From Sphingobacteriales bacterium (GTDB lineage Bacteria > Bacteroidota > Bacteroidia > Chitinophagales > JADJOU01): a stretch of 33,026 nucleotides of DNA. This document shows, piece after piece, positions 1-26,384 of the stretch. Position 1 is the first letter of the stretch. Each line of letters opens with the position of its first letter. Location: contig JAJTHM010000034.1 in the NCBI GenBank assembly GCA_021297855.1, forward strand, positions 1-33,026, given 5' to 3'. The notes beneath the pieces are model-generated. The model was not told the DNA's origin. It ran no database searches and was given only the letters and a program-made list of their open reading frames with translations. The position numbers and the translations under genes are program-made.

Positions 1-115
1 AGATGCGAGAAAATGTAGAATCATTTATGAAAGAAAGAAAGAAAAATAAAAAGCAAGTGCAAAAATACTTTCACGCAAAGCACGTCAGATATGCAGCTTA
101 GAAATTATAGTATCA

Positions 116-3100
116 CTAAATATCTAAACGATTAATAAATACGTTTGTGTTTCCATTATTACCTGCTGTTGTAACATTTGAGGTATTGGTACTGATGGCA
201 ATACCCGCTGAATTACTAAAGCTTGTATTGGCTAGTGATATATTAATATTCGAATTCGTCACAAAATTACTATCCGCTGTTGTGACTAAATGAACACCCA
301 CTCCAAAATTTACGCTTGTATTATTGATAGTCAAACTATCCAAAGTGATATGTTTAACCGTGATCAATCGAATTGTATGTTGAAGATTTGAGACTGTTGG
401 ATTGAACGTAATGGTCTCTCTCGTCGTATTTCCAGAGATTCGCAAATTATTTGTTCTATTCAATCCAGGTATCATGCCATTGAACGTGATTTGCTCATTG
501 TAAGGACCAGATCCTGCATCAATTCTCAAGACCACCGGGCCAGCCATTCCACAAGAATAAACTGCATTGACGGCACCTTGAACTGAGGTGAAATTGCTTT
601 GACTCTGAGGCAAGTTTTTATTGATGGTAAATGTTCCACTGAATGGTGTACAGAAACTCGTTGTAAATGTATCATTCACATTATTTAAATCAGACAATGT
701 ATTTACATTACCAGTGAATGCTCTGAACAAATTATTACCACCTGTTGTGAAGGTATATGGTGTGGTAAATGTCAATTGAAGCGTATCACAAGGTGCGATA
801 TTCAAGCCGGTAAATGATTGAGATGTTACTGCACCATTCACACTGTAATTGGCATCTAAACTGGTTATATTTGAACTTCCATTATTCAATACTGTAATTT
901 TAATCGAATAAGGTGAGCCCAATGCAACAGCTGATGTAGCAGGTGTTCGAACTGCAATAACAGCAGCATCTCGAGCACTAGCATTGAATTCATCTGCACC
1001 CAAATCAGGAGTTGTTGATCTTGATGTATTGTCAATATCTTGAGGTACAAGTGCAAGGACATTTGCTCCAGCATCTGCGATACAAGGAGTCGTCGTATGC
1101 AAATCTGTTGGCGATACAAATGTGACTTCTTTATTTAAGCCACCTGTTTCAAAACTTGCAATTCCGACTGTTGCAGCGGCTTTCCACCCTGCATAATTGG
1201 CATACAACCCACCATTGTAATAAGCAAAGTTAGTATGGCGCGTATAGAAATCATTATTTGTATAAACAATACTTGTTCCAGAATAGATAAAGGCAGCATA
1301 GCCAGAACCTGTGACTGTTCCATTCCCCGTATTTTGGAAAATATTATTCTTAATATTGAGAAAAGATAAACCACTACCTAAATACAATGCATATGAACCC
1401 CCATTGGAAGTATTGGTCATGCTAATCGTATTGTGCATGATGTCCACATAATTCGAACTATTGGCCATATAAAGTCCATAAGCAGTAGAAGTGGTACCTC
1501 CTACTTGTATCATATTATTCGCAATCAAACCGCGAACTGGGTCTGAAGTATTCACATTGAAATATTGCAATTGTATCCCATAGAAACTAGACGAAGAACC
1601 AGAAGTTGAAGTATAAATAATTTTATTTTTCGTCAATACAGGAGCCTTCGGAGACCAAAACATATATATTCCAGAATAGCCTCCTACTGGAGATGTTGAA
1701 GTGATGGTATTACCAGTAACGGTGCATGAATCATGATAATTCGTTTGAATTCCATATTGATACATATCGCTGATGATATTATTGGCAATAATCAATCTAT
1801 TACTATAAACACTCGTATTACTATACATATCTACTCCAGCGTAACCATTAGAAATTGTGTTTCCGATAATATTGATATTATTATTTGTGGTGGAGTTTTG
1901 ATAGACACCTCTGTAATATGTATTGCCAATAACAGGGTGCGTAATGATACAATTTGTTATACTATCAAAATCGCTACCCGCTTTGACATTTATACCAAAA
2001 CAAGTAGATGCGAGGTTATTGATAAAAGTCATTTTATCAAAGGTCACATAGTCAACCCCATTCAACTCAACAACGCCTTGCGAATTTGCAGTAGTTGTGC
2101 TCACGATACAAGCAGCAGCATTTCCTGAAGCTGATTGAAACTTCACTGTTTTAGAAGGAGAAGTACCATTGATGGTATTTAAAACTATTTGCTCATTATA
2201 TGTTCCATTGGCGACATTGAATAAAACAGAACTTCCAATTCCACCACAATTTAAATTTGCTGTAGCAGCTGCGAAAGAGGTGAAATTCGTTGGCCCACTT
2301 CCACTCGGATTGATGGTGTATGTTCCATTCAAGGCAGGACAAAGTGTCCATTGCGCAGTATCATTTGAAGGAGCTACATCAGATACTCCATTTGGTGAAG
2401 TCGTATATACTTTCAAATTAGACGTACCCGCACCGAAAGTATATGGATTTGTTAAAGTTAAAGAAACCGTTGCACATGGAGCTAAAGAACCTGCCCAAGC
2501 TTGACTTACCACTGTTCCACCATTTACTGTATAATTAATATTTGCAGATGTGATTGTGTTTCCACCAAAGTTTTTCAAAGTTACGTTGATACTCTGACTA
2601 CCTGAAGCCAATGGGAAATTTGGCGAATTGATCAGCGACACACCTAAATCATTATTTGCAACAGTACTCATTTCATCAGCTCCCATATCGGGCGCAGAAC
2701 CTCTAGCATGTCCTTCAAAGTCTGTTGAAACCCCTAAGTTTGCTCCATTATTACAAGGGTTGGTAACGTGTAAATCGGTAGCAGAAACAAAAGAAGGATT
2801 GACATTGATAGAATTTAAACCCCCACCAGTTGGATAAGCATTTGCATAATTGCTCGCTGTATAATTCACCCCAGTTATCTGAACGAGATTGGCAGAAGAA
2901 GGGTTGAAATAGTTATTATCATTCAAGGTTGTTACGGCAGAATTTGGGGTTATTATTAAAGGAATAAATCCAGCAGCAGTGGGCTTATTTGTTGCCAAAA
3001 TATTATTTCTCAGATTATTATTCGATCCACTTTGAACATTGATACCAGCATTGGTACCCGAAGTCGTGATTAAATCCATATTCACGGTATTGTGGTACAC

Positions 3101-6420: not shown

Positions 6421-9400
6421 CTACAGCGCTAATATTATTAGTAGCAGTAAATGTATTAAACCAGTATGCGTTGTAGCACTATTTTGATTCATATTAAATG
6501 CGTTGCCATTCCCTAGATTCACTACATGAATCGTATTATGCCAGAAATCGATATTCCTGAATTGAGTCTGAGTATATACACCAGATGGGTTTGTATTATA
6601 GAACATACCTCCTATCATATTGTTTGAAATTTCAGAACGCACAGTGCCAGTTCCATTTTGGAAATTAGTATTAGCGAGAAATATCCCGTACTGTCCAACG
6701 CGATTGATTTTATTTTTCTTGAGCTCAAACCGCTCTGTATAACGTAAATCCATCCCAAATGAATTGACATTACTAGACAACATATTGTCAATTGTATTTC
6801 CATTAATTTTGGTTGAATCTTGATTATACCAATATATTCCATAATATGCTTGACCTAACAATCTATTATTCGTCACCTCATTTTTTTTGCAGAATACAGT
6901 AGTACTCGTGCCCACAGCTGAAATTCCAAAATAGCCTCCTGTGATGGTATTGTTATCCAACACGTTATTATTTCCATTATTCCCAGCTGTTGTAACATTG
7001 GATGTATTGGTACTGATCGCAATACCTGCAGAATTGCTAAGGCTCGCGCTCGCCAAAGAAATATTGATATTCGAATTCGTCACAAAATTGCTATCCGCTG
7101 TGGTGACTAAATGAACACCCACTCCAAAACTTGTACCCGTATTATTAATAGTCAAACTATCCAAAGTGATATGCTTCACGGTGATCAATCGAATCGTATG
7201 TTGAAGTGTTGCAACTGTCGGATTGAACGTAATGGTCTCTCTTGTCGTATTTCCAGAAATTCTCAAATTATTCGTTCTATTCAATCCAGGTATCATACCA
7301 TTGAACGTGATTTGCTCATTGTAAGGACCAGATCCTGCATCAATTCTCAGAACCACTGGGCCTGACATACCACATGAATAAAGTGAGTTCACCGCTTGAG
7401 AAACGGAGGTGAAATTACTAGAGCTAAATGGTAAATTTTTATTAATGGAATACGTTCCACTATAAGAAGTACAAAGATTAGCAATCAGCGTATCGTTAGT
7501 ATTGTTTCCGTCTGCATTGCTAGTATTGATCAAACCATTAAAAATTTTCAAAGCATTCGATCCAGAAGCTGTCAAGGTCAATGGACTTGTGAATGTCAAG
7601 GTAATCGTATCACATGGCAAAAGAGTCAATCCAGTGAAAGATTGAGAAGTCGCCGCACCGCCATTGACAGAATAACTCATATCCAAAGCCGTAATGGTTG
7701 TACTTCCATTATTTCTGACAACTGTTCTTATTGTATAAGGTGCAGCAAGAGCGAAAACTGATCCTGTAGGAGAAGTCATCAATTGGGTAGCTACATCAAA
7801 AGGAGCAGTTGTAAATTCATCACAGCCCAAATCTGGAGTGGTGGTTCGAGCTTGTCCGTCATAATCATCTAACACTTTGTTAACAGAAGGCGAAGTCGAA
7901 GTGTAATTATACCCAATGTCCGCGATACACGGCAGCGTTGTATGCAAGTCCGTCGATGAAGTAAAAGTCACTTCTCTGCTCACACCTGCTGCTTCAAACC
8001 CAGGTATACCTCCTGCAGCCGCCGCTTTCCATGCGGCATAATTAGCATATGACGTACCATTGTAAAAAGCAAAATTCGAATTTCGAGTATAGAAGTCATT
8101 ATTATTATAAAACATCTGTGTTCCAGGATATATAAAAGCAGCATAGCCACTTGTTGTGCCGTTTCCTATATTTTGGAAAATATTGTTTCGCACCGTATCA
8201 TAAGCGAAACCGTTATTCATATAGAGCGCATACGAACCATTTGCAACCGTATTGGTCATATTCACCGAATTGTGGATGATGTCAGAATAGTTGCAAGAGT
8301 TTTGCATAAAAATTCCATAGGCAGTAGCGAATGTACCACCCACCTGTATCATATTATTCGCAATTAAGCCTCTAGTGGGATTTGAAGTGTTCACATTGAA
8401 AAACTGTAAATTCATCCCATAAAAATTTCCTGTGGTAGTATAGGTAGAAGTAAATACAATTTTATTTTTCGCTATAATCGGCCCTTTTGGAGACCAATTA
8501 GCATAAATGCCCGAATAACTGCTATTTGCAGAACTGGAAGTGATTGTATTTCCCGAAATAATTACAGAATCTTGATAGTTACTATATATTCCATTATAAT
8601 ACGATCCATTAATTGAATTATTACTGATGACATTTCTATTTGAAGTGGTAGAAGTATTTGAATTTAGAAACACGCCATATCCAGCACCATTAATGGTATT
8701 GCCATTGATCGTATTTCTATTATCAATTGTATTGTTCTGATATACTCCATTGCCATTGACACCACTGGCAGCCATATCGATGATACAATTGGAGATTGTA
8801 TTGAAATCGGCCCCATTTTGAATCCAAACACCAAAACAAGTTGAAGTAAACGTATTTCTGATTATAACTTTATCGAAAGTGATAAAATCCGCTCCATTTA
8901 AGTTGATAATCGCTTGTGAACTAGGCGTTAAAAAACTGATAGTACAATTCGCCGCTACTCCAGAAAGCGATTGGAACCTAATCGTATTGGTAGCACTAGC
9001 TCCTATGATAGGAGGAATTTGAATTTGCTCATTATAAGTTCCATTGGAAACATCGAAAGTGACTGGACCACTGACCCCGCCGCAAATCAAATTATTTACC
9101 GCAGCTGTGAAGGTAGTAAAGTTTGTAGGACCGCTTCCTGAAGCATTAATAGTATATGTGCCGCTCATGGCTATGCATGAAGTATACCTAGCCGTATCAT
9201 TGGTTGGGTTTGCATCTGCCACTCCATTTGGTGCGGTCGTGAATACACTGAGATCATTAGAACCATTAATTATGGTTACATTCGTTGAAAAAGTAAAACT
9301 AGCACTCGCACATGGATTTAAAGGAGATCCTGAATACGCTTGAGTAACTAATGTTCCATTGTTTAATCGATAGTTGACATCGAAAGAAGAAACTACATTG

Positions 9401-10011
9401 TTTCCTAAGTTTCTAATAACTACCGTTACTGATTGGCTACCCGCAACCAATGGGAATGCTGGCGCTGAAATGCTCATGACTTGAATGTCGTTGCTTGGCA
9501 CAGATACAATTTCATCTGCTCCAATATCTGGGGTGCTAGCTCTGGTTTCTCCATCATAATCCGTTGTTATACCTAATCCAGTTGCGCCATTGAAACATGG
9601 CTGAGTGGTATGGAGATTGGTAGAACTCACAAATGCTGGATTGTCAATATAAGAATTGGCCCCTCCGTTCGCAGGAGAAGCTGTTTTATAATTGGAAGCA
9701 GTTAAATTGACATTATTAATCTGCAATAAATTAGGAGACGATGCATTGAAATAATTATTATTATTTAAAAAAGTAAACATCCCAGTAGTGTTTACCCACA
9801 CAGGAAACATGCTGGTTCCTGAGGTAGCAGAAATTCCAATATTATTATTTCTGCAATCTGTAAAACTACTATTGGCATTATATATACCCGCTGTAGTTCC
9901 TGATGTAGCTATTAAATTACAATTTATGCTATTGTGGTACAAATTCCATCTACTAGAGGAGTTTAAAAATATTCCACCATAGCCAGATGTGTTTCTAAAA
10001 CCTGTTATCAT
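6421..10011 (-). CDS. Giant beta-helix repeat surface protein, N-proximal portion (broken gene)
   Basis: The 1196-residue frame has the same architecture as the frame at 116-6217: beta-helix blocks separated by immunoglobulin-like linkers after GADE/GCDE motifs near 9510 and 7820. The apparent start ATG (10011) lies in the middle of a beta-helix unit. Unit similarity continues upstream in this frame to about 10090 (GRYGVYATSSAG matches GQYGLYFTSSNG of the unit near 3200), so the true start is missing. There is no signal peptide. The ATG overlaps the TGA of the upstream frame as ATGA, but this falls inside the conserved NNM turn, so coupling is probably accidental. The last ~15 residues (after NMNQNS) are a frameshifted tail rich in Leu and Ile. 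The correct continuation is in the frame that leads into 6217-116. Confidence 0.8.
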   Translation of the reverse strand: MITGFRNTSGYGGIFLNSSSRWNLYHNSINCNLIATSGTTAGIYNANSSFTDCRNNNIGISATSGTSMFPVWVNTTGMFTFLNNNNYFNASSPNLLQINNVNLTASNYKTASPANGGANSYIDNPAFVSSTNLHTTQPCFNGATGLGITTDYDGETRASTPDIGADEIVSVPSNDIQVMSISAPAFPLVAGSQSVTVVIRNLGNNVVSSFDVNYRLNNGTLVTQAYSGSPLNPCASASFTFSTNVTIINGSNDLSVFTTAPNGVADANPTNDTARYTSCIAMSGTYTINASGSGPTNFTTFTAAVNNLICGGVSGPVTFDVSNGTYNEQIQIPPIIGASATNTIRFQSLSGVAANCTISFLTPSSQAIINLNGADFITFDKVIIRNTFTSTCFGVWIQNGADFNTISNCIIDMAASGVNGNGVYQNNTIDNRNTINGNTINGAGYGVFLNSNTSTTSNRNVISNNSINGSYYNGIYSNYQDSVIISGNTITSSSANSSYSGIYANWSPKGPIIAKNKIVFTSTYTTTGNFYGMNLQFFNVNTSNPTRGLIANNMIQVGGTFATAYGIFMQNSCNYSDIIHNSVNMTNTVANGSYALYMNNGFAYDTVRNNIFQNIGNGTTSGYAAFIYPGTQMFYNNNDFYTRNSNFAFYNGTSYANYAAWKAAAAGGIPGFEAAGVSREVTFTSSTDLHTTLPCIADIGYNYTSTSPSVNKVLDDYDGQARTTTPDLGCDEFTTAPFDVATQLMTSPTGSVFALAAPYTIRTVVRNNGSTTITALDMSYSVNGGAATSQSFTGLTLLPCDTITLTFTSPLTLTASGSNALKIFNGLINTSNADGNNTNDTLIANLCTSYSGTYSINKNLPFSSSNFTSVSQAVNSLYSCGMSGPVVLRIDAGSGPYNEQITFNGMIPGLNRTNNLRISGNTTRETITFNPTVATLQHTIRLITVKHITLDSLTINNTGTSFGVGVHLVTTADSNFVTNSNINISLASASLSNSAGIAISTNTSNVTTAGNNGNNNVLDNNTITGGYFGISAVGTSTTVFCKKNEVTNNRLLGQAYYGIYWYNQDSTKINGNTIDNMLSSNVNSFGMDLRYTERFELKKNKINRVGQYGIFLANTNFQNGTGTVRSEISNNMIGGMFYNTNPSGVYTQTQFRNIDFWHNTIHVVNLGNGNAFNMNQNSATTHTGLIHLLLLIILAL
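6461..6481 (-). other. Frameshift joining the two parts of the beta-helix gene
   Basis: The upstream frame runs NAFNMNQNS and then becomes a short hydrophobic tail ending at 6421. In another frame the sequence continues from 6478 with YNAYWFNTFTATNNI and on without a stop through to 116. A TAG at 6479-6481 limits the shift to the bases just after it. Loss of a single base in this stretch would restore one frame. There is no slippery heptamer, so a mutation or a sequencing error is more likely than programmed frameshifting. Confidence 0.75.
6962..7380 (-). repeat. Direct repeat copy 2 (unit D'), close copy of 140-560
   Basis: This is the partner of 140-560 at an offset of about 6.82 kb in the same orientation. 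Here the beta-helix continues past the homologous point (NNNVLDNNTITGGYFGI), which shows what the truncated copy at 140 would be expected to encode next. Confidence 0.75.
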
Positions 10012-11507
10012 ATTATTGGCGCAGATATTGCTCGCTGCGACTTGTCCGGCTGAAGATGTAGCATAAACTCCATATCGTCCGATGTCTGGATAGACGATAG
10101 CTGAGAGATAAATGCCAGAGTGCGCAGATTTTCTGTACTTTGATTTAAAATGGGACCGAATTCGGAGATGAAAATAGGTATAACTCTAGCCATATCTCTC
10201 GCCTGGACTGCATCCACGATATTGAAGTACTTCGTGCAGATCTCCATTTCTTGACTAGCTATTGTCATCGTTTTTCTCATCTTCTCATCTCCTAGTTCAT
10301 ACATGGTTTGATTGAAACTGGCTAGGGCTTTGAGATAAAGGGTGAGATAGTTATTGAAATCTCGAACGGTGTTGAGTTTAAAATTATGGTTTTTAATGTA
10401 ATCGTGAATCTGATTGAGTTGTTCTACGATTGAAATCAATTGTTGCATTTTCATAAGACTTTGTTGAGCCGAATTCGCCTTAGTTATACTTATGAAATCT
10501 CGCAGTTCTGGTATTTGTATGAGCTGCTGATAGAGCAGTGCATAGAAAAAACGCAATTCGGTTTTATCTAATTCTATACGCCTATTTAGTTTTAAATTTT
10601 GAAAACTCACCCAATAGTCCATTCCTTTGCTCGTATTTAAACTAGCCTCCGATAGCAGGTCTATGACATTCAAAATTCTATATGCATTGGAGTCGCTGGA
10701 ATAGGTTTCATTGGTCAGAGAATGTATCAACTTATCGAGTGCATATCCATTTCGCACATTCGTGATAAAATGATGGCTTAGTTTGAGTATGTCTTTCGTT
10801 TTATTTATATCGACAGACGTTGAAAACAAAGAGGGCGAATGTATGACCATATTGATAGGTAAGTTTTCCATATCCATCAATGCAGACTGCCTGAGCACCA
10901 TTAAATCAGAGGTATAGTAGGATTGACCTCCGCCCGCGTATAAAGTATGAATATATTGAAATGATTTTGGAAACAAGTAGCGGCACAGATTGGAATCCTT
11001 CGCATTGGTTATTTTTGCAAAAATTTGATTGATACCAATATGCAAGACCTCTTGCTTGAATCGGGAAGCCATAAACGTCGAAACTCCATTGATGGCGGCA
11101 GCTTCCCAACTGATCGCTTGGTTGGACGATTTCCCTTCGGTAGAACTAGGATGATAAACTGCAACTGGTGAGTTCGGCTGATTATAAATAGTACTTATGC
11201 GTCGACTTTTACTGCCACTAGCGGAGGTTGATTTTTGACTTGAAATTTGATGGATAGAATACATTTTTATTTCCAAAGGACTTAAAAACGGATTGCGTTG
11301 AATATCCTGTGTATCAATCCCATATTTCTCTAGAATGAGGTAAAAAGCCGCATATAAATTTTGATTATTGCTATCCAACAATCGTGCGTTTTGCTTATAA
11401 ATTTTAGTTAGTTCTAAGGCATCTAAGTAGGTATTTTGCTTATTGTAGATCTGCGCATTAGCTAAAAAACTAAAAAACAAAAGAAGGTGACCACAAATAA
11501 TTTTCAT
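10008..11507 (-). CDS. Secreted protein of unknown function, probably truncated at its C-terminus
   Basis: The protein has 499 residues. It begins MKIICGHLLLFFSFLANAQ, a clear signal peptide with cleavage expected after NAQ. The rest is mainly helical, with a polar Ser-rich loop around residues 95-130, a segment ISWEAAAINGVSTFMASRF, and helical stretches up to EFGPILNQSTEN. From memory it resembles the N-terminal half of a long Bacteroidota secreted/outer-membrane protein family whose members continue well beyond a SDEV-type segment, here TSDDMEFML. The final residues, HLQPDKSQRAISAPII, do not look like that family. The gene therefore seems to be cut where it meets the beta-helix gene. A -7 element lies about 30 bases upstream of the start. 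No function can be assigned. Confidence 0.75.
   Translation of the reverse strand: MKIICGHLLLFFSFLANAQIYNKQNTYLDALELTKIYKQNARLLDSNNQNLYAAFYLILEKYGIDTQDIQRNPFLSPLEIKMYSIHQISSQKSTSASGSKSRRISTIYNQPNSPVAVYHPSSTEGKSSNQAISWEAAAINGVSTFMASRFKQEVLHIGINQIFAKITNAKDSNLCRYLFPKSFQYIHTLYAGGGQSYYTSDLMVLRQSALMDMENLPINMVIHSPSLFSTSVDINKTKDILKLSHHFITNVRNGYALDKLIHSLTNETYSSDSNAYRILNVIDLLSEASLNTSKGMDYWVSFQNLKLNRRIELDKTELRFFYALLYQQLIQIPELRDFISITKANSAQQSLMKMQQLISIVEQLNQIHDYIKNHNFKLNTVRDFNNYLTLYLKALASFNQTMYELGDEKMRKTMTIASQEMEICTKYFNIVDAVQARDMARVIPIFISEFGPILNQSTENLRTLAFISQLSSIQTSDDMEFMLHLQPDKSQRAISAPII
10040..10100 (-). other. Junction between two truncated coding sequences
   Basis: Two unrelated reading frames overlap here. 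One is the end of the secreted protein gene from 11507 (SSIQTSDDMEFML, then an unusual tail). The other is the start of beta-helix similarity in a different frame (DIGRYGVYATSSAG). The beta-helix frame is closed by a stop about 85 bases further upstream and has no start codon before it. Both genes look incomplete at this point, so this is either a recombination junction or an assembly join. Confidence 0.6.
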
Positions 11508-12159: not shown

Positions 12160-12882
12160 ATGTTCAAGCGGATTTTTTCTCTTTTCATTTTAAGCTGGCT
12201 ATTCAACTCAGTCTATAGTCAAGAAACCGCTATCAAGGACTTTGATATTTTAGAGCATTCTATTCATCTTCCATACGAATTCAAAGACTGGAGATACAAA
12301 CAGAGCTTGGGTTTCTCCTTAATTTACCTCCCAAAAGATTGGTTGGAACAAGCCTATAGTCTGCCTATGTTGTATTATAAATCTAATTTCTTCTTGATTA
12401 AAGGCTTTGCCATCAATACTGATATTCGCACGATACTGGCAGCTTCGGATATAGCCATAGGTCCATCGTGGAACATAAAACTAAGCAATAAACTCTTTTT
12501 GGGTTTAGGCTACCAAACTTCCTATGGACTGGGGATGCTCTATGACCTCGGCTATGACAATACCTTGACCGTCTGGGGGCATAGACCTTATCTCAAGCTA
12601 GGTTATTTATGGCACGATTTGACATTTACATTGAAAGGAGGGGTAGATTTCTCTAATAAAATTCAATTTGAAGCAGGGAGCACAAGCCTTTCTGGCAATA
12701 TAGAATCACTCAATGGATATCACGTTTCCTTATTTTTAGAACAGAGAATGTTTAAAAATAAATCCTTTTCCATCGGCTATACAAGCAATATTATGAAATT
12801 TCATATTCTAGGTTGGCCGGCATTTAACTATACGAAAAATATGTATCACATTCCTGAATTGACCGCATTGTTTAATTTCTAA
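12160..12882 (+). CDS. Outer-membrane beta-barrel-like protein
   Basis: The 240-residue protein opens with a signal peptide, MFKRIFSLFILSWLFNSVYS, with cleavage before QET. The mature part alternates hydrophobic and polar residues in short strands rich in Gly, Tyr and aromatics (LFLGLGYQTSYGLGMLYD, YLKLGYLWHDLTF) and ends in Phe, as expected of a small outer-membrane barrel. No specific family is recognised. The gene is the first of three in line: the next starts one base after this stop region, and a second barrel protein follows. This suggests a cell-envelope unit built around the lipoprotein phosphodiesterase. The start is supported by the signal peptide beginning exactly there. The function is unknown. 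Confidence 0.7.
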   Translation: MFKRIFSLFILSWLFNSVYSQETAIKDFDILEHSIHLPYEFKDWRYKQSLGFSLIYLPKDWLEQAYSLPMLYYKSNFFLIKGFAINTDIRTILAASDIAIGPSWNIKLSNKLFLGLGYQTSYGLGMLYDLGYDNTLTVWGHRPYLKLGYLWHDLTFTLKGGVDFSNKIQFEAGSTSLSGNIESLNGYHVSLFLEQRMFKNKSFSIGYTSNIMKFHILGWPAFNYTKNMYHIPELTALFNF

Positions 12883-12883
12883 T

Positions 12884-14140
12884 ATGAAAACACGTTTAGC
12901 TTTATATTCATTCATTATATTTCTCCTTTTTGGATGTACAAAAAATGAATATAGCTTCAATCCAGAATATGATAAAACTTATCTAGCTGGCACTACTCCA
13001 TTACCTTTAGAAATTAGACCGCTATTAATCGGCAACTATTCTAGTACTGGTAATTCAGGGGGATTGGGCAATAAGTTTGTTCTCCTTTGGAAGCAGAACA
13101 AACTTTCCATATTTTCTAATGTAAATGGAAACTATGCCGTGCTAGATGTTGGTGTAAACTATGCTGATTCTTCGATTAAAATGGCTGGCTACTGGCGATC
13201 CCCTTTAAACCGAGAAGAGGGTAAAATTTATTTAACCCTCTCTAAACAGGATGGTGCCGATGATATATTGGCAAAGAAATTTACTGTTGTCAAATGGAAG
13301 GGCCAAAATATAAATCTTGAGGGTAAATCGAGCGGTGATATAGAGTTGACATTCGAACGATACTTCTCCAATAAAGTTTTAAATAATGTCAAATTTTCCA
13401 ACATAGCACATAGAGCGGGTGGCAGAAATTCAGATAATATTCCTTTTGCAGAAAACTCAATAGAATTAGTAAAACGAGCCTCGGAAATGGGTGCTAATGG
13501 CGTAGAGATTGATATCAAGCTAACCAAAGATAATGTACCCATCGTCTATCATGATGATGATATCAATATACGTCTTACCCAAAAAGGGCCTGTTGTCGGG
13601 GATATAAATGATTTCAACTATGCGTTTCTGAAACGATATGTGAGATTGGTCGATGGACAGACTATTCCCACTTTAGAAGATATGATCAATACCATTATTG
13701 ATTCTACTGACATTAAGTTTGTCTGGCTAGATAACAAAGGTGGCAGCGAGCGCTTTTTCAGCTATACCCTACCTATCATGTATAAGGCCCTTCTCAGAGC
13801 CAAAGGAAAAAACAATGATATCGTTATTCTCAATGGACTGCCCACTGAAGAAATAGCCACAGAATTTTTGAAAGTACCCAATAGCAGAGAAAGACCCAAT
13901 CTCTGTGAAATAAGTTTTGAAAAAGCCAAAGAACTAAACTCAGCTGTCTATGCGCCTAGATGGACATTGGGAACCTTAGATGCTGAAGTCGCAGAAGCCC
14001 ATAGTAGAAATATGAAAGTGATTACATGGACGGTTGACCTTAGCTCAGTCATGAGGAAGTTTATTTCCATAGGAAATTTTGATGGTATATTGACGAACTA
14101 CCCATCTATACTCGCTTATGAATTTTACTCTCAGGAATAA
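12884..14140 (+). CDS. Lipoprotein with glycerophosphodiester phosphodiesterase domain
   Basis: The protein has 418 residues. The N-terminus MKTRLALYSFIIFLLFGC is a lipoprotein signal with the lipobox Cys at residue 18, so the protein should be anchored in the cell envelope. Residues about 20-165 form a region I do not recognise. From about residue 173 a GDPD TIM-barrel begins. NIAHRAGG carries the first catalytic His (about 176), ENSIE follows, then EIDIKLTKDNVPIVYHDD carries the Glu-x-Asp metal ligands and second His. FDGILTNYP near the end is typical of the family. Members hydrolyse glycerophosphodiesters to glycerol-3-phosphate and an alcohol with a divalent metal, usually calcium or magnesium. 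The substrate here is not known. The stop TAA shares a base with the next ATG, so translation is probably coupled. Confidence 0.88.
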   Translation: MKTRLALYSFIIFLLFGCTKNEYSFNPEYDKTYLAGTTPLPLEIRPLLIGNYSSTGNSGGLGNKFVLLWKQNKLSIFSNVNGNYAVLDVGVNYADSSIKMAGYWRSPLNREEGKIYLTLSKQDGADDILAKKFTVVKWKGQNINLEGKSSGDIELTFERYFSNKVLNNVKFSNIAHRAGGRNSDNIPFAENSIELVKRASEMGANGVEIDIKLTKDNVPIVYHDDDINIRLTQKGPVVGDINDFNYAFLKRYVRLVDGQTIPTLEDMINTIIDSTDIKFVWLDNKGGSERFFSYTLPIMYKALLRAKGKNNDIVILNGLPTEEIATEFLKVPNSRERPNLCEISFEKAKELNSAVYAPRWTLGTLDAEVAEAHSRNMKVITWTVDLSSVMRKFISIGNFDGILTNYPSILAYEFYSQE

Positions 14141-14688
14141 TGTATAAGATTTTTGTTTTATTTTTCTTAATAGCGCCTCAGTTTCTAAAATCTCAAAAAG
14201 ATTTCAGTTTTCAATTGGCTGCTGGACCGAACTATTATTTCAATAACTTAGAAATATTTAAAGAAAACCTAGAACCTATCAACTATTCTATCTATTCTAA
14301 ACTCATGTGGAATACGAGGTATAGATTATCCTTTGGAATCGAATCTGGCTATATTAGACTGTATCGCTTAAATGATTTTGCTACAGGTCTCAATTCAGAG
14401 ATTACCATGACCGCAATTCCAGTCCATGCTGCTATTGAAATGAAATTTAGCTCAAAACTATACGCCACATTTAGTTTTGGGCCTAGTTTTTTTAGAAATA
14501 ATATTATTTCCAATAAAGGCGAACAATCAACCCATACATTTTCTACCGCAGATATTAGCTTTGGATTGGGTTATAGACATACATTTAAAAATCACTTATT
14601 CATTGGTGCGGAATCTAAATTTTACTACTCTTCCAAATCGGAGGATCGAAATTTAGCCTTACCTGTTTTTGTTGGGATTAATTTTTAA
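14140..14688 (+). CDS. Outer-membrane beta-barrel-like protein (porin-family fold)
   Basis: The protein has 182 residues. MYKIFVLFFLIAPQFLKSQ is a signal peptide. The rest shows the strand-turn pattern of small eight-stranded barrels: FSFQLAAGPNYYFNN, YRLSFGIESGYIRLY, LYATFSFGPSFFRNN and a closing strand ending in Phe (PVFVGINF). It resembles the outer membrane protein beta-barrel domain common in Bacteroidota. It starts within the stop codon of the phosphodiesterase gene (TAATG) and is the last gene of that unit. Its convergent neighbour, ung, begins its 3' end 47 bases away. No ligand or specific role can be inferred. Confidence 0.72.
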   Translation: MYKIFVLFFLIAPQFLKSQKDFSFQLAAGPNYYFNNLEIFKENLEPINYSIYSKLMWNTRYRLSFGIESGYIRLYRLNDFATGLNSEITMTAIPVHAAIEMKFSSKLYATFSFGPSFFRNNIISNKGEQSTHTFSTADISFGLGYRHTFKNHLFIGAESKFYYSSKSEDRNLALPVFVGINF

Positions 14689-14735
14689 ATAAAGTAAGAA
14701 CGCGCCTACGATGCGGGTTCCTACGAGACATATTC

Positions 14736-15404
14736 TCACCAAACGATTTCATTCTCTCCACTTTCCTTTAAATACGCATTGCATTTTTTAAAGACGTCCG
14801 AACCGAAAAATCCTCTATGCGCGGAAAATGGAGAAGGATGTGCGGCGCAGATTATTTTATGTTTATGAATATGAATCAAGGGAATTTTTGTTTGAGCAAA
14901 ATTACCTAAGAGAATAAACACAATACCTTGTTTTTTATTAGAAATTTCGGAGATGACAAAATCTGTAAACAATTGCCAACCGTATTTCGCATGACTCGCA
15001 GGCAGATCCTTCTCGACAGTCAAAACTGAATTAATCAATAAAACGCCTTGCGCAGCCCAGTCAGACAAATCTGTGCTTCGTTTCGCATTAAAATTTGGGT
15101 ATTCTTGTTTAAGCTCTTTAAACATATTTCTCAAAGAAGGCGGTGTCCGAATACCCTCATGAACCGAAAAAGAAAGCCCATTGGCCTCCCCTGCCCCGTG
15201 ATAGGGGTCCTGACCTAGCAATACGACTTTTAGTTGATCGAAATCACATAAATCAAAGGCACGAAAAATATCATTTATAGGAGGGAAAATAGTTTTACCC
15301 TCCGATTTTTCTATATCTAATTTGGCTATTGAATTCTGAAATAAACCCAGTTCAAGTGCTTGTTGAAAAATAGACGACCAGTTATTTGAAGGGAAATTAA
15401 TCAA
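14736..15404 (-). CDS. ung: Uracil-DNA glycosylase, family 1
   Basis: The 222-residue length is normal for the family. It removes uracil from DNA that arises by cytosine deamination or dUTP misincorporation, starting base-excision repair in the cytoplasm. The water-activating motif GQDPYHG is at residues 64-70 with catalytic Asp66. LLINSVLTVE around 122-131 holds the conserved Asn. The DNA-intercalation loop HPSPFSAHRGFFG begins at His189; the usual Leu in HPSPLS is Phe here. All catalytic residues are present. The start is the ATG before INFPSNNW, the usual N-terminal context. A TAGATTTG -7 element lies about 50 bases upstream at the edge of a MITE-like repeat. Confidence 0.96.
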   Translation of the reverse strand: MINFPSNNWSSIFQQALELGLFQNSIAKLDIEKSEGKTIFPPINDIFRAFDLCDFDQLKVVLLGQDPYHGAGEANGLSFSVHEGIRTPPSLRNMFKELKQEYPNFNAKRSTDLSDWAAQGVLLINSVLTVEKDLPASHAKYGWQLFTDFVISEISNKKQGIVFILLGNFAQTKIPLIHIHKHKIICAAHPSPFSAHRGFFGSDVFKKCNAYLKESGENEIVW

Positions 15405-15450
15405 GTGATACCATTTATGTATTAAATATGAATCAATTATTTCTTATACA

Positions 15451-15575
15451 GTATTACAAATCTATGTCGTTTAGTTAGTATTTGGTTCGTGGGGACCCGA
15501 ACCATTGCAGTTCGCCAAGCTGCTTGTCTCACGCAGCATTCATATTTCCTATCTAAACGACATTGTATTGCAAAT
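15451..15575. repeat. MITE-like element with terminal inverted repeats and flanking direct repeats
   Basis: ATGTCGTTTAGTTAG (15464-15478) and CTATCTAAACGACAT (15549-15563) are complementary at 14 of 15 positions. Between them are two smaller hairpins: GGTTCG...CGAACC (15484-15503) and GCTGC...GCAGC (15519-15537). Immediately outside are near-identical direct repeats, GTATTACAAAT (15451-15461) and GTATTGCAAAT (15565-15575), which could be a decayed target-site duplication. There is no coding capacity. Confidence 0.55.
15457..15464 (-). promoter_or_regulatory. Putative -7 element (TAGATTTG) for ung
   Basis: The minus strand reads TAGATTTG, which fits TAnnTTTG, 53 bases upstream of the ung ATG. 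It sits at the left boundary of the inverted-repeat element at 15464-15563, so any upstream promoter half would lie inside that element. Confidence 0.4.
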
Positions 15576-15604
15576 TAATAATGAAAAATTAATGTATAAA
15601 AAAT

Positions 15605-15612
15605 TACTTTTG
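15605..15612 (+). promoter_or_regulatory. Putative -7 element (TACTTTTG) for the aminotransferase gene
   Basis: The site matches TAnnTTTG and leaves a leader of about 100 bases before the ATG at 15714. The leader contains ATACCG near 15625 and a complementary CGGTAT near 15675, plus two TATCTAAGA repeats. No clear -33 TTG was seen. Confidence 0.35.
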
Positions 15613-15713
15613 CAAAACTAATTATACCGTACCGAATGTATCTAAGATATTTTATCTAAGAAAATTCATGGTCGGTATTATATTTTTATTTTTTTTAAAG
15701 TATATAAATTCTT

Positions 15714-17027
15714 ATGTCAAATCAATCAAAAATGAAAGCAGAGTTTCCAAATATTAGCAAGTCACTCGAAATGTACGACAGAGCCAAGAAGCTCATGCAT
15801 CCTATTACACAAACATTAGCCAAAGGTCCAGGTCAGTTTACCTTTGGAGTATCACCAATATATGTAGAGCGCGCTAAAGGTTCTAAAATATGGGATGTCG
15901 ATGGCAATGAGTATCTTGACTACTGTATGGGAATAGGTCCCATTTCTTTGGGTTATGGCTATAATAGAGTGAACAATGCTATTAAGGAACAATTAGAAAA
16001 AGGAATTACCTTTTCATTGATGCATAGATTAGAGCTAGAAGTAGCAGAGAGATTGCACGAAATTATCCCGAATGCAGAGAGTATTCGTATCACCAAGCAA
16101 GGAGCAGATGCATGTAGCGCTGCAGTGCGAATAGCGAGAGCATTTACCAAAAGAGATAAGGTGGCTGTATGTGGCTATCATGGCTGGCATGACTGGTATA
16201 TTGGCACTACCACACGTGACGCAGGAATCCCTCAGGCAGTCAAAGATTTAACGGTCACGATTCAGTATAACAATATCGAAAGTGTCAAGGCAGTAATGAA
16301 GCCTGATTTAGCTTGTTTGATATTAGAACCTATCATTTTCGAAGAACCAAAGGATAATTTCCTGCATGAAGTTCAGGCACTATGCAAAGCCAATGGAACG
16401 CTTTTGATATTCGATGAAATGTGGACAGGATTCAGATTGGCATTGGGCGGTGCGCAAGAATTTTTCGGCATTAAACCAGACCTAGCTGTCTATTCCAAAG
16501 CCTGTGCAAATGGTATGCCAATCGCTTTCTTGACAGGTAGAGATTATGTGATGCGTCTATTCGAATCCGATGTATTTTATTTCACCACCTTCGGTGGAGA
16601 GGCATTGTCTCTTGCTGCTACACTAGCTACATTGGATGAAATGAAAGAAAAAAATGTACCTCAATTTTTAGCTTCCCAAGGACAAAAAATCAAGGATGGA
16701 TTCAATGCCTTGAGAGAAAAACATGGTATGGCGGATTATATTACGATAGGTGGTTATCCTTGTCGTTCCATAGTCAATTTTACGGAGAAAGCAGGCGATG
16801 CACTTGTTTTAAAGACTTACCTCCAACAGGAGATGATTAAGCGCGGTATCCTCTGGTCTAGCTTCCACAATATGTGCTTCTCCCATAGCGATGCCGATGT
16901 ACAACTAACGTTAGATGCATACGATGATATTTTCCCTACGTTCAAACAACTCATCGAGTCTAATTCTGTCGCTTCGGCTTTGAAAGGACAAGTGGTAGAG
17001 GCGGTGTTTAGGAAGGTGAAGTATTGA
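15714..17027 (+). CDS. Class-III PLP-dependent aminotransferase (glutamate-1-semialdehyde aminomutase-like)
   Basis: The protein has 437 residues. WDVDGNEYLDYCMGIGPISL near residue 62 is the typical entry motif of class-III aminotransferases. ITKQGADACSAAVRIAR is the phosphate-binding region and YHGWHDWY follows. LLIFDEMWTGFR carries the cofactor-binding Asp (about 234), and YSKACANGMP carries the Schiff-base Lys (about 262). TTFGGEALSLAA completes the active site. It is closest in style to the aminomutase-like proteins used in sugar or surface-polysaccharide pathways. The HemL signature around the Lys (GGGMP) is replaced by ACANGMP, so it is probably not the haem-pathway enzyme. The amino acceptor is unknown. 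The gene stands alone on its strand and is followed by an inverted-repeat intergenic region and a SnoaL-like gene. Confidence 0.87.
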   Translation: MSNQSKMKAEFPNISKSLEMYDRAKKLMHPITQTLAKGPGQFTFGVSPIYVERAKGSKIWDVDGNEYLDYCMGIGPISLGYGYNRVNNAIKEQLEKGITFSLMHRLELEVAERLHEIIPNAESIRITKQGADACSAAVRIARAFTKRDKVAVCGYHGWHDWYIGTTTRDAGIPQAVKDLTVTIQYNNIESVKAVMKPDLACLILEPIIFEEPKDNFLHEVQALCKANGTLLIFDEMWTGFRLALGGAQEFFGIKPDLAVYSKACANGMPIAFLTGRDYVMRLFESDVFYFTTFGGEALSLAATLATLDEMKEKNVPQFLASQGQKIKDGFNALREKHGMADYITIGGYPCRSIVNFTEKAGDALVLKTYLQQEMIKRGILWSSFHNMCFSHSDADVQLTLDAYDDIFPTFKQLIESNSVASALKGQVVEAVFRKVKY

Positions 17028-18593: not shown

Positions 18594-19958
18594 TTACGCC
18601 CCAGCCTGCGCCGCAGGCACTGGTCTCACATCTGCATAAGTATGCATGCCGAAATTCTGAGTCATACAAAGCTGAGGATTTTTGACATGCCATTCGAATT
18701 CATCTCTAAAATGACGGAGAGCAGCAGCTACAGGCCATGCAGCGGCTTCACCTAGAGGACATATCGTGGTACCATCAATTGACTTTTGAATATCCCATAA
18801 AAGGTCTATATCTGACATGGTGCCGTGTCCATTTTCAATCTTATGCAATACCTTTTCTAACCAACCTGTGCCTTCGCGGCATGGACTGCATTGTCCACAA
18901 CTTTCGTGATGATAGAATCGCGCAAAATTCCATGTATTACGCACAATACACTGATCTTCATCATAGAGCATAAATCCTCCTGACCCAAGCATAGTTCCCG
19001 TTTCAAACCCACCATCATTTAAACCTTCATAAGAAAATAGTCGATCTTCGCCTGCGGCTGTTTTACAAACTAAATTAGCCGGAAGTATTGGCATAGAACT
19101 TCCACCTGCGACACAGGCTTTCATTCTCTTGCCATTAGGAATTCCGCCTAGCCATTCATCCGAATAGATAAAATCTTCCATCTTCATCCCGAGTTCTATT
19201 TCATATATACCAGGTTTCTTGATATTCCCAGAAGCCGATATTAATTTCGTCCCTGTACTTTTCCCTATACCTATTTTAGCATACTCATCCCCACTCATTT
19301 CGATAATAGGAACAACCGCTGCTATAGTTTCTACATTATTGACTACCGTAGGGCACTGATAAAGTCCTTTGACAGCTGGGAATGGTGGCTTCATACGAGG
19401 ATTTCCACGCTTGCCCTCTAAGGCTTCTAAAAGAGCGGTTTCTTCTCCACAAATATACGCACCCGCACCTGGCGTCACATATAACTCACAGTCGAAACCA
19501 GTTTTTAAAATATTCTTTCCTAACCAACCAGCATTCTTGGCTTCGGCAATGGCTTTTTCTAAAATATCTACTATCCACATATACTCCCCTCGGATAAAAA
19601 TATGTCCAACATTGGCACCAAGTGCAAAGCAAGAATTAATCATTCCTTCTATCAATAGATGTGGAAGTTTTTCCATGATATATCTATCTTTAAAAGTACC
19701 AGGCTCTGATTCGTCTGCATTGCAGACGAGATAGCGAGGAACTCCCTCAGGCTTAGCGAGAAAGGACCATTTCATCCCTGTGGGAAAACCAGCACCCCCT
19801 CGACCTCTCAGTCCCGATTTCTGAACCTCAGAGACAATCTCTTCGGGTGTCATCTTCAAAGCCTTTTCTGTAGAAGCATAGCCGCCGTTTTTTCTATAGA
19901 CTTCATAAGTCTCTATTCCTGCGATGTGGGCGTTTTTAAGTAGTAGTTTGCGTGACAT
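18594..19958 (-). CDS. nuoF: NADH-quinone oxidoreductase subunit F (NADH/FMN-binding)
   Basis: The protein has 454 residues, within the family's usual range. NuoF takes electrons from NADH to FMN and passes them to the N3 iron-sulfur cluster at the tip of the complex I peripheral arm. GLRGRGGAGFPTGMKW (49-64) is the NADH-binding glycine-rich loop and CNADESEPGTFKDR (79-92) the FMN site. CGEETALLEALEG is the conserved nucleotide-contact region. ESCGQCSPCREGTGW (about 350-362) supplies three N3 cysteines, with the fourth in TICPLGEAAAWP. All are present. It is the last gene of the nuo cluster, four bases after the TOPRIM gene stop. No nuoG follows; the next feature downstream is the palindromic terminator at 18518. 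Confidence 0.97.
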   Translation of the reverse strand: MSRKLLLKNAHIAGIETYEVYRKNGGYASTEKALKMTPEEIVSEVQKSGLRGRGGAGFPTGMKWSFLAKPEGVPRYLVCNADESEPGTFKDRYIMEKLPHLLIEGMINSCFALGANVGHIFIRGEYMWIVDILEKAIAEAKNAGWLGKNILKTGFDCELYVTPGAGAYICGEETALLEALEGKRGNPRMKPPFPAVKGLYQCPTVVNNVETIAAVVPIIEMSGDEYAKIGIGKSTGTKLISASGNIKKPGIYEIELGMKMEDFIYSDEWLGGIPNGKRMKACVAGGSSMPILPANLVCKTAAGEDRLFSYEGLNDGGFETGTMLGSGGFMLYDEDQCIVRNTWNFARFYHHESCGQCSPCREGTGWLEKVLHKIENGHGTMSDIDLLWDIQKSIDGTTICPLGEAAAWPVAAALRHFRDEFEWHVKNPQLCMTQNFGMHTYADVRPVPAAQAGA

Positions 19959-19962
19959 ATTG

Positions 19963-20637
19963 TTAATTTGACTTTAAATTTAAATTGTCTTCAAGAAATT
20001 TGCATAGTGATTTTAGGTGATTATTCTCTTCAAAATTATATTCCCAAAGTCCATCATCGGAATAATCCCGTTTTGTTTTTTTATTCTGGTAGAATCCAGT
20101 CCTATAATTTTCAAATAAATCCACATAGGAATAAACCATTCCAGCCGACTTCGGAATTTTTAATTCATATCTAGCTTCATTTTTCGACTGTAAACAGCCA
20201 TAGAGATTATTCCAACATTCAATAAAAAATCTTTTATCGGGCTTGATGCAACTCATATAAAAAGATTCTAAATCCCCATTGTCAGAATCATTGGGAAGCA
20301 AATAGATAGAGTAGTTAATATTTTTTTTCGTCGCTTTAATTAACTCTGCAAAACCAACCTCTATTTCTTTTTTTCTTTTTGTGTACCCACCTAGATTTGA
20401 TGTATTATCTGCATCAAAAATAATTAGATTTTTCCCGCTAGATTCTATTCTATAAATTTCTTTTAAAGCTACTTGTTTAAACAAACCTTGCCATCCATTA
20501 CAATTAATAATACAATCCTCAAGTGCTAGTCCGTTATAAGGGAAACTTATATTGTAATGAATTTCCAAAATGGTAGCAATCATTTTTTGGTCTGTATTCC
20601 CTTCAACAAATATTTTATTTAAACTAAAATCTAACAT
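19963..20637 (-). CDS. TOPRIM-like protein (DUF3226 type), partner of the adjacent AAA ATPase
   Basis: The protein has 224 residues. FVEGNTDQK near the N-terminus carries the TOPRIM Glu (about 12). LIIFDADNTSNLGGYTKRKK has the paired Asp residues (75 and 77). LLPNDSDNGDLESFY follows with an acidic pair typical of DUF3226. TOPRIM domains bind metal and cut or rejoin nucleic acids; in OLD and PARIS-type systems they are the nuclease effector. Here the ATG overlaps the stop of the ATPase gene (TAATG), so the two are translated as a pair. The C-terminal third (about 150-224) is Lys/Asn-rich and unassigned. A defence role is inferred from the domain pair, not shown. The gene lies between nuoE and nuoF, to which it has no known functional link. 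Confidence 0.78.
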   Translation of the reverse strand: MLDFSLNKIFVEGNTDQKMIATILEIHYNISFPYNGLALEDCIINCNGWQGLFKQVALKEIYRIESSGKNLIIFDADNTSNLGGYTKRKKEIEVGFAELIKATKKNINYSIYLLPNDSDNGDLESFYMSCIKPDKRFFIECWNNLYGCLQSKNEARYELKIPKSAGMVYSYVDLFENYRTGFYQNKKTKRDYSDDGLWEYNFEENNHLKSLCKFLEDNLNLKSN

Positions 20638-21767
20638 TATGCTCCCCTTAAGTTAGTATTAGAAATTAAGCCAGCCTTTATATTCTCATAACTTAATGTA
20701 GAAGCATAAACTTTTCCATTATGCTCCTCCATCTCTATCAATCTCCCCTTTTCCTCCATTCCCAATTCCTCCAATGCCTGAGCATAAGCCTCAATACACT
20801 CTTGAGAGTGAGTGGTGGCGAAAATTTGGATATTGAGCTTAGTAGCTAACATTAAAAATTCTTTCCAAAAAATCTTTAATCTAGAAAAATGAATACCTGT
20901 ATCAATTTCATCAATTAAAAAATAATTAAACCCATTTTTTTTAGCGTAATAGACTTCTATTAAATACCTTATAATTTTCTGAACTCCATCACCAAATCTT
21001 GTAACATTAACAAAAAGACCTTTTGAAGATTTTGTTGCGATAAAAATCATTTCATCGCTGTCATTATTAATCTTTTGAATATTGATAGCAATAATATCAG
21101 GTATAATCACAATTTTGATTATTGAAACTATTTCCTCATAATCAAATGCAGTCAAATTCAAAAGCTCTATTTGCGATAGTTCTTTTATAAATTTATTTAA
21201 ATCTCTTTCGTAAAAATTACGAAACTTAACTATAGGTTTGTATAACTTGGATTCAAACTTTCTATCTTCTCTGTAATAATCATCTTCATACATAAACTGT
21301 ATCTCAGGCTTCACATTAGACTTATCTATTCGAATCCAATATTTATATTCAATACCATCCATGAAATAAGGCGTACTTACAAAAAGATCTTTGTCTTCTT
21401 CCTTAAGTCTAAAATAATCAATATCTGTAAGAATTACTTTTTGACTATTAAAAACTAATGTAAGTGGCAGTTCTTCTTTGTTTTTGAGTAGATTAAAATA
21501 ATTAAATTTTGGAATAATTGGATTTTTTGAATATTTATTCTCAGCGTGATGATGTATATGTTGATCACATAATAAACTATGAAACTTAAAGACTAGGTCA
21601 TTATTACTTTTTAAATTTAGACTTAATGCCTCCAGCAAACTCGTCTTCCCCACATTATTATCCCCCGTAATCAAATTAAACTGACCGATGTCATTGACGA
21701 CAAGGTGGTCAAATTTCTTGAAATTTGAAACCTCAAAATGGGTAATAAACTCGCTTTGGTCAGGCAT
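20637..21767 (-). CDS. AAA ATPase of the OLD/ABC-like type, paired with a TOPRIM protein
   Basis: The protein has 376 residues. FEVSNFKKFDHLVVNDIGQF leads into Walker A GDNNVGKT (35-42), the arrangement seen in SMC-like AAA_15/AAA_21 ATPases. A long middle region, visibly AT-rich in codon use, holds a helical/insert segment. RFGDGVQKIIRYLIE looks like the signature region. FLIDEIDTGIH (about 281-291) is Walker B with the D-loop, and FATTHSQE (about 315) is the H-motif. All ATPase motifs are intact. Relatives with a fused or separate TOPRIM domain include OLD nucleases, Gabija GajA and PARIS AriA; the separate downstream TOPRIM gene fits the two-gene layout. It begins 10 bases after the DUF4349 gene, inside the nuo operon. 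Confidence 0.82.
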   Translation of the reverse strand: MPDQSEFITHFEVSNFKKFDHLVVNDIGQFNLITGDNNVGKTSLLEALSLNLKSNNDLVFKFHSLLCDQHIHHHAENKYSKNPIIPKFNYFNLLKNKEELPLTLVFNSQKVILTDIDYFRLKEEDKDLFVSTPYFMDGIEYKYWIRIDKSNVKPEIQFMYEDDYYREDRKFESKLYKPIVKFRNFYERDLNKFIKELSQIELLNLTAFDYEEIVSIIKIVIIPDIIAINIQKINNDSDEMIFIATKSSKGLFVNVTRFGDGVQKIIRYLIEVYYAKKNGFNYFLIDEIDTGIHFSRLKIFWKEFLMLATKLNIQIFATTHSQECIEAYAQALEELGMEEKGRLIEMEEHNGKVYASTLSYENIKAGLISNTNLRGA

Positions 21768-21777
21768 TCTATTCTTT

Positions 21778-22599
21778 CTACTTATTAAATATATTCAGAC
21801 TAATTTTTTTCTTCTTGATTAGGATAAAAACACCTAGTGCTACTAAGAAAAATGGCAACAACTCTATTATCCATAAAAAGATAGTAAAAATATTGTCCCA
21901 TCCTTCTGTAAAGGAATTCTTCAATTTTGTAAAATAATTATTGGATAGTTTACTTTCTTTATCCAGAATAGTGATTTCAAACTGACTAAATTGTGTATTA
22001 TTATTTAGGAAACGTTGACGACCTTCTACTCTTTCTATGCTGCCTCGCACCTCACTGAGTTTAGCTTCTATTTCTAGCATGTCTTTTATAGTCTTGGCTT
22101 GTTTGACCAATTGTAAATAACGAAGCTCTAATTCTTTTTGTGCCTTTACTTGTGATTCATTGTCGATAAACTCTTCAGTCACATCATCGCTAGAAACACT
22201 CTTGCTAAGTAAGACGCCTCCATTTTTTTCTATTTCTAAGAGTACGGCATCAAATTTTTGAAATGGAACTTTAAAATTAATTTTATACTCCGTTATCTGA
22301 TCTAATTTTGTTTGATTATTCGAAATAATGTAACCCTGATTTTTAGCTACTAATTGCGTTAAACTTCGCACATTTTCTTCAGGATTATCGGACTCGAATG
22401 TAAGGAATGCATTTTTTATAATTTTTCTGTCATAGGTATTTAAATTACTAGAATTAACTGTAGCCTTATTTGGAATAGGGCTATTCAAAGTGATAGCATC
22501 TGCAACTGCCATTTCTGAAGCACCCATATTGGCAGCACTTTCATCTGCTCTATTGCACGATACCAAATAAATAAAAAAAAGAAAAATTAATTTTTTCAT
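21778..22599 (-). CDS. DUF4349 lipoprotein
   Basis: The protein has 273 residues. MKKLIFLFFIYLVSC is a lipoprotein signal with the lipidated Cys at 15. After a short variable stretch the DUF4349 domain begins around DRKIIKNAFLTFESDN. It includes LVAKNQGYIISNN, then a long coiled-coil-like segment (KAQKELELRYLQLVKQAKTI through VRGSIERVEGRQRFL), and a C-terminal transmembrane helix around WIIELLPFFLVALGVFILI with a Lys-rich tail. The function of DUF4349 is not established; it is a common envelope protein in Bacteroidota. It starts four bases after the nuoE stop, so it is in the operon, but nothing links it to complex I chemistry. Confidence 0.85.
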   Translation of the reverse strand: MKKLIFLFFIYLVSCNRADESAANMGASEMAVADAITLNSPIPNKATVNSSNLNTYDRKIIKNAFLTFESDNPEENVRSLTQLVAKNQGYIISNNQTKLDQITEYKINFKVPFQKFDAVLLEIEKNGGVLLSKSVSSDDVTEEFIDNESQVKAQKELELRYLQLVKQAKTIKDMLEIEAKLSEVRGSIERVEGRQRFLNNNTQFSQFEITILDKESKLSNNYFTKLKNSFTEGWDNIFTIFLWIIELLPFFLVALGVFILIKKKKISLNIFNK

Positions 22600-22603
22600 A
22601 AAA

Positions 22604-23119
22604 TTACTTCTTAGTTCTCAATTCTTCTATCAATGCATCTATTTTCTCGGGGGTCAAATGCTCTCTATAGCTTTTTCCTAATTGCAACATAGGCGCATAT
22701 CCACAAGCTCCCAAGCACTCCACTTCTTTAATGGTAAACAAACCATCGGCTGTGGTTTCTCCTGTCTTAACTCCCAATTTCTTACAAGTATAATCTATCA
22801 AACTTTCTACACCTGCTGTAGCACACGTAGCCGTATGACAAAACTCAAGCATATATTTCCCAACGGGCTTCAAGTTGTACATAGAATAGAAACTAGCTAC
22901 CTCATAGACTTCTATTGGCTTCAAATTTAAAATTTCAGCTACATAATTCATTGTATTGACACTCAACCAACCTCCAAACTCAGCCTGTGCCAAATGCAAA
23001 ACGCGAAGGATGGCACTTTTTTGTTTGCCCTCGGGATACTGGGCTATGATACGCTGCACTTCTTGCAAAGTCTCTGCTTTGAATTGTGGTTTTTCTGGGG
23101 CTTCAGTTACTTTTACCAT
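22604..23119 (-). CDS. nuoE: NADH-quinone oxidoreductase subunit E ([2Fe-2S], N1a)
   Basis: The protein has 171 residues, normal for NuoE. It has an N-terminal helical part (YPEGKQKSAILRVLHLAQAE) and a thioredoxin-like domain binding the N1a [2Fe-2S] cluster. Cluster ligands are Cys94 and Cys99 in FCHTATCATAG and Cys135 and Cys139 in ECLGACGYAP. All four are present. NuoE pairs with NuoF in the NADH dehydrogenase module. In most operons nuoF follows directly. Here a DUF4349 gene and an ATPase/TOPRIM pair (about 2.6 kb) separate them, and a small membrane-protein gene precedes nuoE. Confidence 0.96.
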   Translation of the reverse strand: MVKVTEAPEKPQFKAETLQEVQRIIAQYPEGKQKSAILRVLHLAQAEFGGWLSVNTMNYVAEILNLKPIEVYEVASFYSMYNLKPVGKYMLEFCHTATCATAGVESLIDYTCKKLGVKTGETTADGLFTIKEVECLGACGYAPMLQLGKSYREHLTPEKIDALIEELRTKK

Positions 23120-23127
23120 ACTTATTT

Positions 23128-23460
23128 CTATTTGATATTCTGTAAGTTTAATTCGATAAAATATTGCATACTTGCATCTTTAATCTTTCTAAAAATAAAA
23201 GTAAAGAGCATTATATATAACAGCTGTGATAAAATCCTTTCTAGATTTAATCCGTTTTCATTAATAGATTCTTTAAGATAAAAAAGAACTGCGAAAATGA
23301 AAATACTCGCAGCCATATATTCACTATTCCATAAAAGTAGAAATAAAATAGCGACAAGAGGTCTAGAGTAGGTTGCATTATCTTTCACTATCCACGGCAA
23401 CATCAACCATGATAGTCCGAGTCCTATAAGAAAAAATAAAATGCTAATTATTTCTGACAT
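23128..23460 (-). CDS. Small membrane protein of unknown function inside the nuo operon
   Basis: The protein has 110 residues with about three hydrophobic segments: IISILFFLIGLGLSWLMLPW, PLVAILFLLLWN with YMAASIFIFAVLFYL, and LLYIMLFTFIF. Short charged loops lie between them and the C-terminus is polar (MQYFIELNLQNIK). No conserved family is recognised. It is tightly packed, 5 bases after nuoD and 8 before nuoE, so it is probably translated. It is not nuoK, nuoJ or nuoH: it lacks their conserved acidic residues and expected order. It could be a lineage-specific passenger gene or an accessory membrane subunit; the sequence does not decide. Confidence 0.6.
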   Translation of the reverse strand: MSEIISILFFLIGLGLSWLMLPWIVKDNATYSRPLVAILFLLLWNSEYMAASIFIFAVLFYLKESINENGLNLERILSQLLYIMLFTFIFRKIKDASMQYFIELNLQNIK

Positions 23461-23465
23461 TCTTT

Positions 23466-24674: not shown

Positions 24675-24676
24675 CT

Positions 24677-25276: not shown

Positions 25277-25314
25277 TCGTTTATATTCTATTTTCTAATC
25301 TTCTAAAATCTAGT

Positions 25315-25815: not shown

Positions 25816-25819
25816 ATGA

Positions 25820-26368: not shown

Positions 26369-26384
26369 TTTTTTATATGAGATA

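Follow-up and report, generated by a model that had tools for sequence, protein, structure and literature searches.

The analysed stretch of DNA (33,026 bases; hereafter the window) is the entire contig C102 of a 3.1-Mb genome (G000) that consists of 134 contigs and is 99.97% complete. It carries the remainders of two genes, an open reading frame (ORF) of 499 residues and a giant beta-helix gene, together with a conserved flanking block. The following features were found.

1..130, no strand assigned: insertion-sequence end interrupting the giant gene; the same end was found at 18 further contig ends
119..6451, minus strand: continuation of the giant gene in a second beta-helix frame (2111 aa), with an extra module block that the same-genus genome G002 lacks
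131..138, minus strand: TTATTAAT, an 8-base target-site duplication whose second copy lies at the end of contig C15 (L021)
6452..6470, minus strand: frameshift in the giant beta-helix gene; the homology changes frame mid-domain
6469..10080, minus strand: beta-helix segment without its head, matching the G002 ortholog collinearly over residues 567-1773 at 71% identity
10008..11507, minus strand: 499-aa ORF, the 5' two thirds of a Bacteroidota exported-protein family, C-terminal domain missing
10011..10058, minus strand: residues 484-499 of the 499-aa ORF (HLQPDKSQRAISAPII), which are beta-helix DNA read out of frame
10059..10083, minus strand: junction block, suiting both families in different frames, with TSDDMEFML (499-aa family) and IGRYGVY (beta-helix)
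12160..17027, no strand assigned: flanking block coding for a 240-aa protein, GDPD, OMP, UDG and an aminotransferase, syntenic in three same-genus genomes

The 499-aa ORF begins with a signal-peptide-like sequence (MKIICGHLLLFFSFLANAQ) and its C-terminal end reads ...SSIQTSDDMEFMLHLQPDKSQRAISAPII. A family profile built without this ORF matched it with 81 bits, with an envelope of residues 1-484 out of 499 and coverage of model positions 25-444 of 659; the N-terminal two thirds with the family profile match are present. The ORF shares with the other members of this exported Bacteroidota family (~630-1120 aa) the signal-peptide-like start, the N-terminal two thirds and the S-D/E-D/E motif, but lacks the C-terminal domain common to the homologs. 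Using the ORF as a single-sequence query, only two weak relatives were retrieved, one of them of 675 aa (G229). The search with the family alignment, which includes the ORF itself, recovered it at E 1e-270 and detected the family in 23 of 395 genomes, the window genome counted. A query with the 502-aa sequence of a distant homolog was dropped, as it missed even the known window copy, and the family alignment was used instead. The family (window 10008-11507, homologs L085-L107) and the C-terminal domain that its members share had no match in Pfam or NCBIfam, and none in the PDB when searched with the family alignment (an 11-sequence profile).

In a preliminary description of the locus it had been proposed that the ORF loses its family sequence after TSDDMEFML, and the comparison with homologs agreed with this. 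Family homology ends at residue ~479-483 (nt ~10073-10059): the ORF tracks the family through TSDDM, probably up to L483, and then reads HLQPDKSQRAISAPII, so that residues 484-499 do not fit the family. Past the F..V..A.(S)(D/E)(D/E) motif, the homolog ORFs run into E..ALP.GS..KR and a conserved C-terminal stretch. Every homolog ORF spanning the breakpoint goes on, for roughly 110-185 residues more, and none ends here; the one copy without the stretch is cut by the end of its locus. A natural end of the 499-aa protein at this point was therefore rejected. The family-alignment search found neither the C-terminal domain beginning with ALP.GS..KR elsewhere in G000 nor any second family match in this genome. 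Since the same query detects the C-terminal part alone in other genomes (E 1e-20 or better), the domain is missing and not moved to another binned contig.

An intact ortholog of the giant gene (P0004, 4058 aa, reading frame open throughout) is carried by the same-genus genome G002. With its signal-peptide-like start, a GEVED domain, CARDB and beta-helix modules and a T9SS sorting tail matching TIGR04183/PF18962, P0004 has all the domains of the T9SS-exported right-handed beta-helix giant surface proteins of Bacteroidota (GEVED, CARDB, Beta_helix, Por_Secre_tail). The window copy resembles this group by its CARDB and beta-helix modules and by its C-terminal end, located on C15, but differs in having no signal peptide and no GEVED N-terminus, and in its extra module block, its frameshift and its insertion sequence. 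On the minus strand the beta-helix frame has no stop between 10185 and 6421, and homology begins at G20 of P0002 (nt 10080), which corresponds to residue 567 of the ortholog. From 10185 down to the ATG at 10011 this frame contains no ATG, GTG or TTG, which bears out the earlier claim that beta-helix similarity sets in in another frame with no start codon upstream. Sequence 5' of nt 10083 in this frame is DNA of the 499-aa gene read out of frame, and over 10011..10058 the frame reads TSSAGQVAASNICANN, in agreement with the G002 ortholog. An intact beta-helix start in this frame was rejected, as there is no start codon and the homology begins mid-ortholog. Beyond paralogous modules, no counterpart of ortholog residues 1-566 was found in the G000 assembly. 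Both partners are incomplete and joined where the preliminary description had placed their fusion, one lacking its C-terminal domain and the other its first 566 codons.

The two truncated homologies meet within ~25 bases and overlap shortly, with nt 10080-10071, perhaps 10083-10059, belonging to both. Among 22,949 null windows, 1 reached the family score of TSDDM, and among 9,220 none reached the beta-helix score of GRYGVY; the two tests are not independent, as both frames use the same bases. Chance resemblance at the junction is unlikely on either side. Read by eye, other GxYG sites in the matching frame do not yield S-D-D-M. From these alignments we infer that the two genes had some 5-20 bases in common at the breakpoint; the shared block 10059-10083 is short and partly forced, as the two frames overlap on the same bases. 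The junction contains no Ns, and no second copy of its DNA was found in G000, where the best secondary match of the region was a paralogous module (97 bases, 70%) and all others were short matches at chance level. The literature yielded nothing specific.

The giant gene is broken at three places, namely at the junction, by the frameshift near 6452-6470 and by the insertion sequence at the left end of the contig. Residues 692-2091 of the 2111-aa frame resemble residues 174-1591 of the G002 ortholog at 53%. A direct repeat of ~507 bases (window 138-640 and 6959-7461, 84.6% identical) lies inside the gene; recombination between its two copies would delete the extra module block and yield a G002-like layout. 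The insertion-sequence end at the left of the window was found at 19 contig ends of G000 and its opposite end at 18 (37 contig ends in all), corresponding to ~18-19 copies of the element (window 1-138; L021 10099-10237). The element appears to use one near-invariant AT-rich target, with TTATTAATAA on the right side in 18 of 18 copies examined. The shared lengths measured from its contig ends were 139-142 bases in every case; these overlaps imply a de Bruijn assembly with a final graph word of k ~141.

Contig C15 (10,237 bases) starts with the opposite end of the same insertion sequence, and TTATTAAT flanks both sides. It aligns with residues 1610-4058 of the G002 ortholog at 85% and, joined to the window by this putative linkage, would extend the gene to residue 4058, the end of the C-terminal sorting tail. 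Synteny links the two contigs as well, because C15 carries a DEAD-box gene whose ortholog in G002 adjoins the flanking block with the 240-aa gene. Judged from the insertion-sequence flanks and this synteny, C15 most probably continues the giant gene of the window. In the window genome the giant gene is a decaying pseudogene.

The gene order differs between the congeners. In G002 the giant gene lies between the GlnRS and flavin reductase genes (L033 3733-15909), whereas in G000 its neighbours are the DEAD-box gene and the 240-aa gene; by this comparison of gene orders it has changed locus between the two. The GlnRS and flavin reductase genes of G000 are adjacent, with a gap of ~7 bases and no giant gene (L081 6660-6668, G000:C129). 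The giant gene was not detected in the same-genus genomes G001, G003 and G004, one of which is only 62% complete. The synonymous difference to G002 (pS) was 0.45 for the C15 part (L021 2745-10154) and 0.60 for the window part (6469-10080), below the 0.70-0.82 of four other, neighbouring genes. The lower pS hints at horizontal transfer of the giant gene, though constraint on the codons of so repetitive a protein could explain part of the difference.

We regard the junction as probably a real recombination scar, left in a decaying giant gene by a deletion through illegitimate recombination at a short shared sequence, or, as a less likely variant, by a replacement when an already headless fragment arrived. 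A deletion would have removed the C-terminal domain of the 499-aa family gene together with the first ~566 codons of the giant T9SS-type beta-helix gene. The two minus-strand remainders would then have been joined out of frame at ~5-20 shared bases by slippage, annealing or end joining. The outcome is not a fusion protein: the first ORF picks up 16 junk residues and then a stop, and the second has neither its start nor its signal peptide. Both remainders lie on one strand and in the order that a deletion leaves. The arrangement resembles bacterial pseudogenes formed by deletion between short direct repeats in its one-strand remainders, its short shared sequence and the loss of the intervening DNA; it differs from them in that the parental gene order and the parental sequences are unseen, and the deletion is deduced. 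A single deletion presumes that the two genes were once neighbours, and in no other genome was the family found next to a beta-helix gene within the ~1.5 kb of flanks covered. Also counting against a deletion are the short and partly forced nature of the shared block, the different locus of the giant gene in G002, which would allow for replacement on arrival, and the fact that the join is known from assembled sequence.

Misassembly at repeats in Porphyromonas gingivalis is the subject of one paper (PMC5771137). Of the two explanations given in the preliminary description, a recombination in which the surface gene lost its start stands as the best reading. A misjoin at repeated sequence was unsupported and is unlikely: the junction is single-copy, contigs broken at repeats overlap by 139-142 bases, as expected for k ~141, and neither missing half was found in the assembly. 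Another kind of artefact is also unlikely, in which two loci with a word of ~20 bases in common were connected during an early small-k round of the metagenome assembly and their other arms dropped out. The overlaps at k ~141 are typical of iterative-k short-read metagenome assembly and would fit such a process, the length of the shared block is close to that of a small starting k, and both ends of the giant gene sit in an assembly with many breaks. However, the junction DNA is single-copy, both orphan arms would need to be absent from a genome that is nearly complete, and a real deletion would be selectively neutral in a gene that is independently broken twice.

It is likewise unlikely that the beta-helix gene had already lost its head when it arrived by horizontal transfer and that its insertion into the 499-aa family gene wrecked both. 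The different loci in G000 and G002, the failure to detect the gene in the three other congeners, the empty GlnRS/flavin reductase site of G000 and the pS of the giant gene relative to its neighbours would all suit such a replacement. It would place the C-terminal domain of the 499-aa gene beyond the beta-helix gene, but none was found, so that an extra deletion would be needed, and just ~260 bases separate the giant gene from the next gene on C15. We give little credence to a further possibility, that of a modular and mobile surface cassette: lineages would trade the start and the modules of the giant gene by recombination, and the junction would be a silent or transitional state and not terminal decay. 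A working two-gene arrangement, in which the 499-aa protein has its natural end here and translation of the beta-helix protein is coupled to it through the ATGA overlap of stop and first in-frame ATG (10008-10011), is hardly credible, given that beta-helix homology already begins 5' of that ATG and mid-domain, the predicted product has no signal peptide, the homologs of the 499-aa ORF do not stop here and the beta-helix gene is broken again downstream.

Under the deletion reading, the event looks real, well bounded and of an ordinary, known kind, namely gene decay after recombination rather than a working fusion. One species would have lost a very large surface-protein gene of which a congener keeps an intact copy at another locus. 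An automatic annotation would predict two proteins at the junction, neither of them a functional unit. If instead the exchange of modules were true, the locus would allow the shuffling of surface-gene modules to be tested in an uncultured genus. Elsewhere in the window, a run of minus-strand ORFs (18594-26795) has a strongly negative GC skew that reaches -0.28 per kb, and direct repeats with ~214-base spacing (32415-33026; units with GCAAAG and CTTTGTGAAACTTTGTGCTCCAACCTC) reach the right end of the contig.
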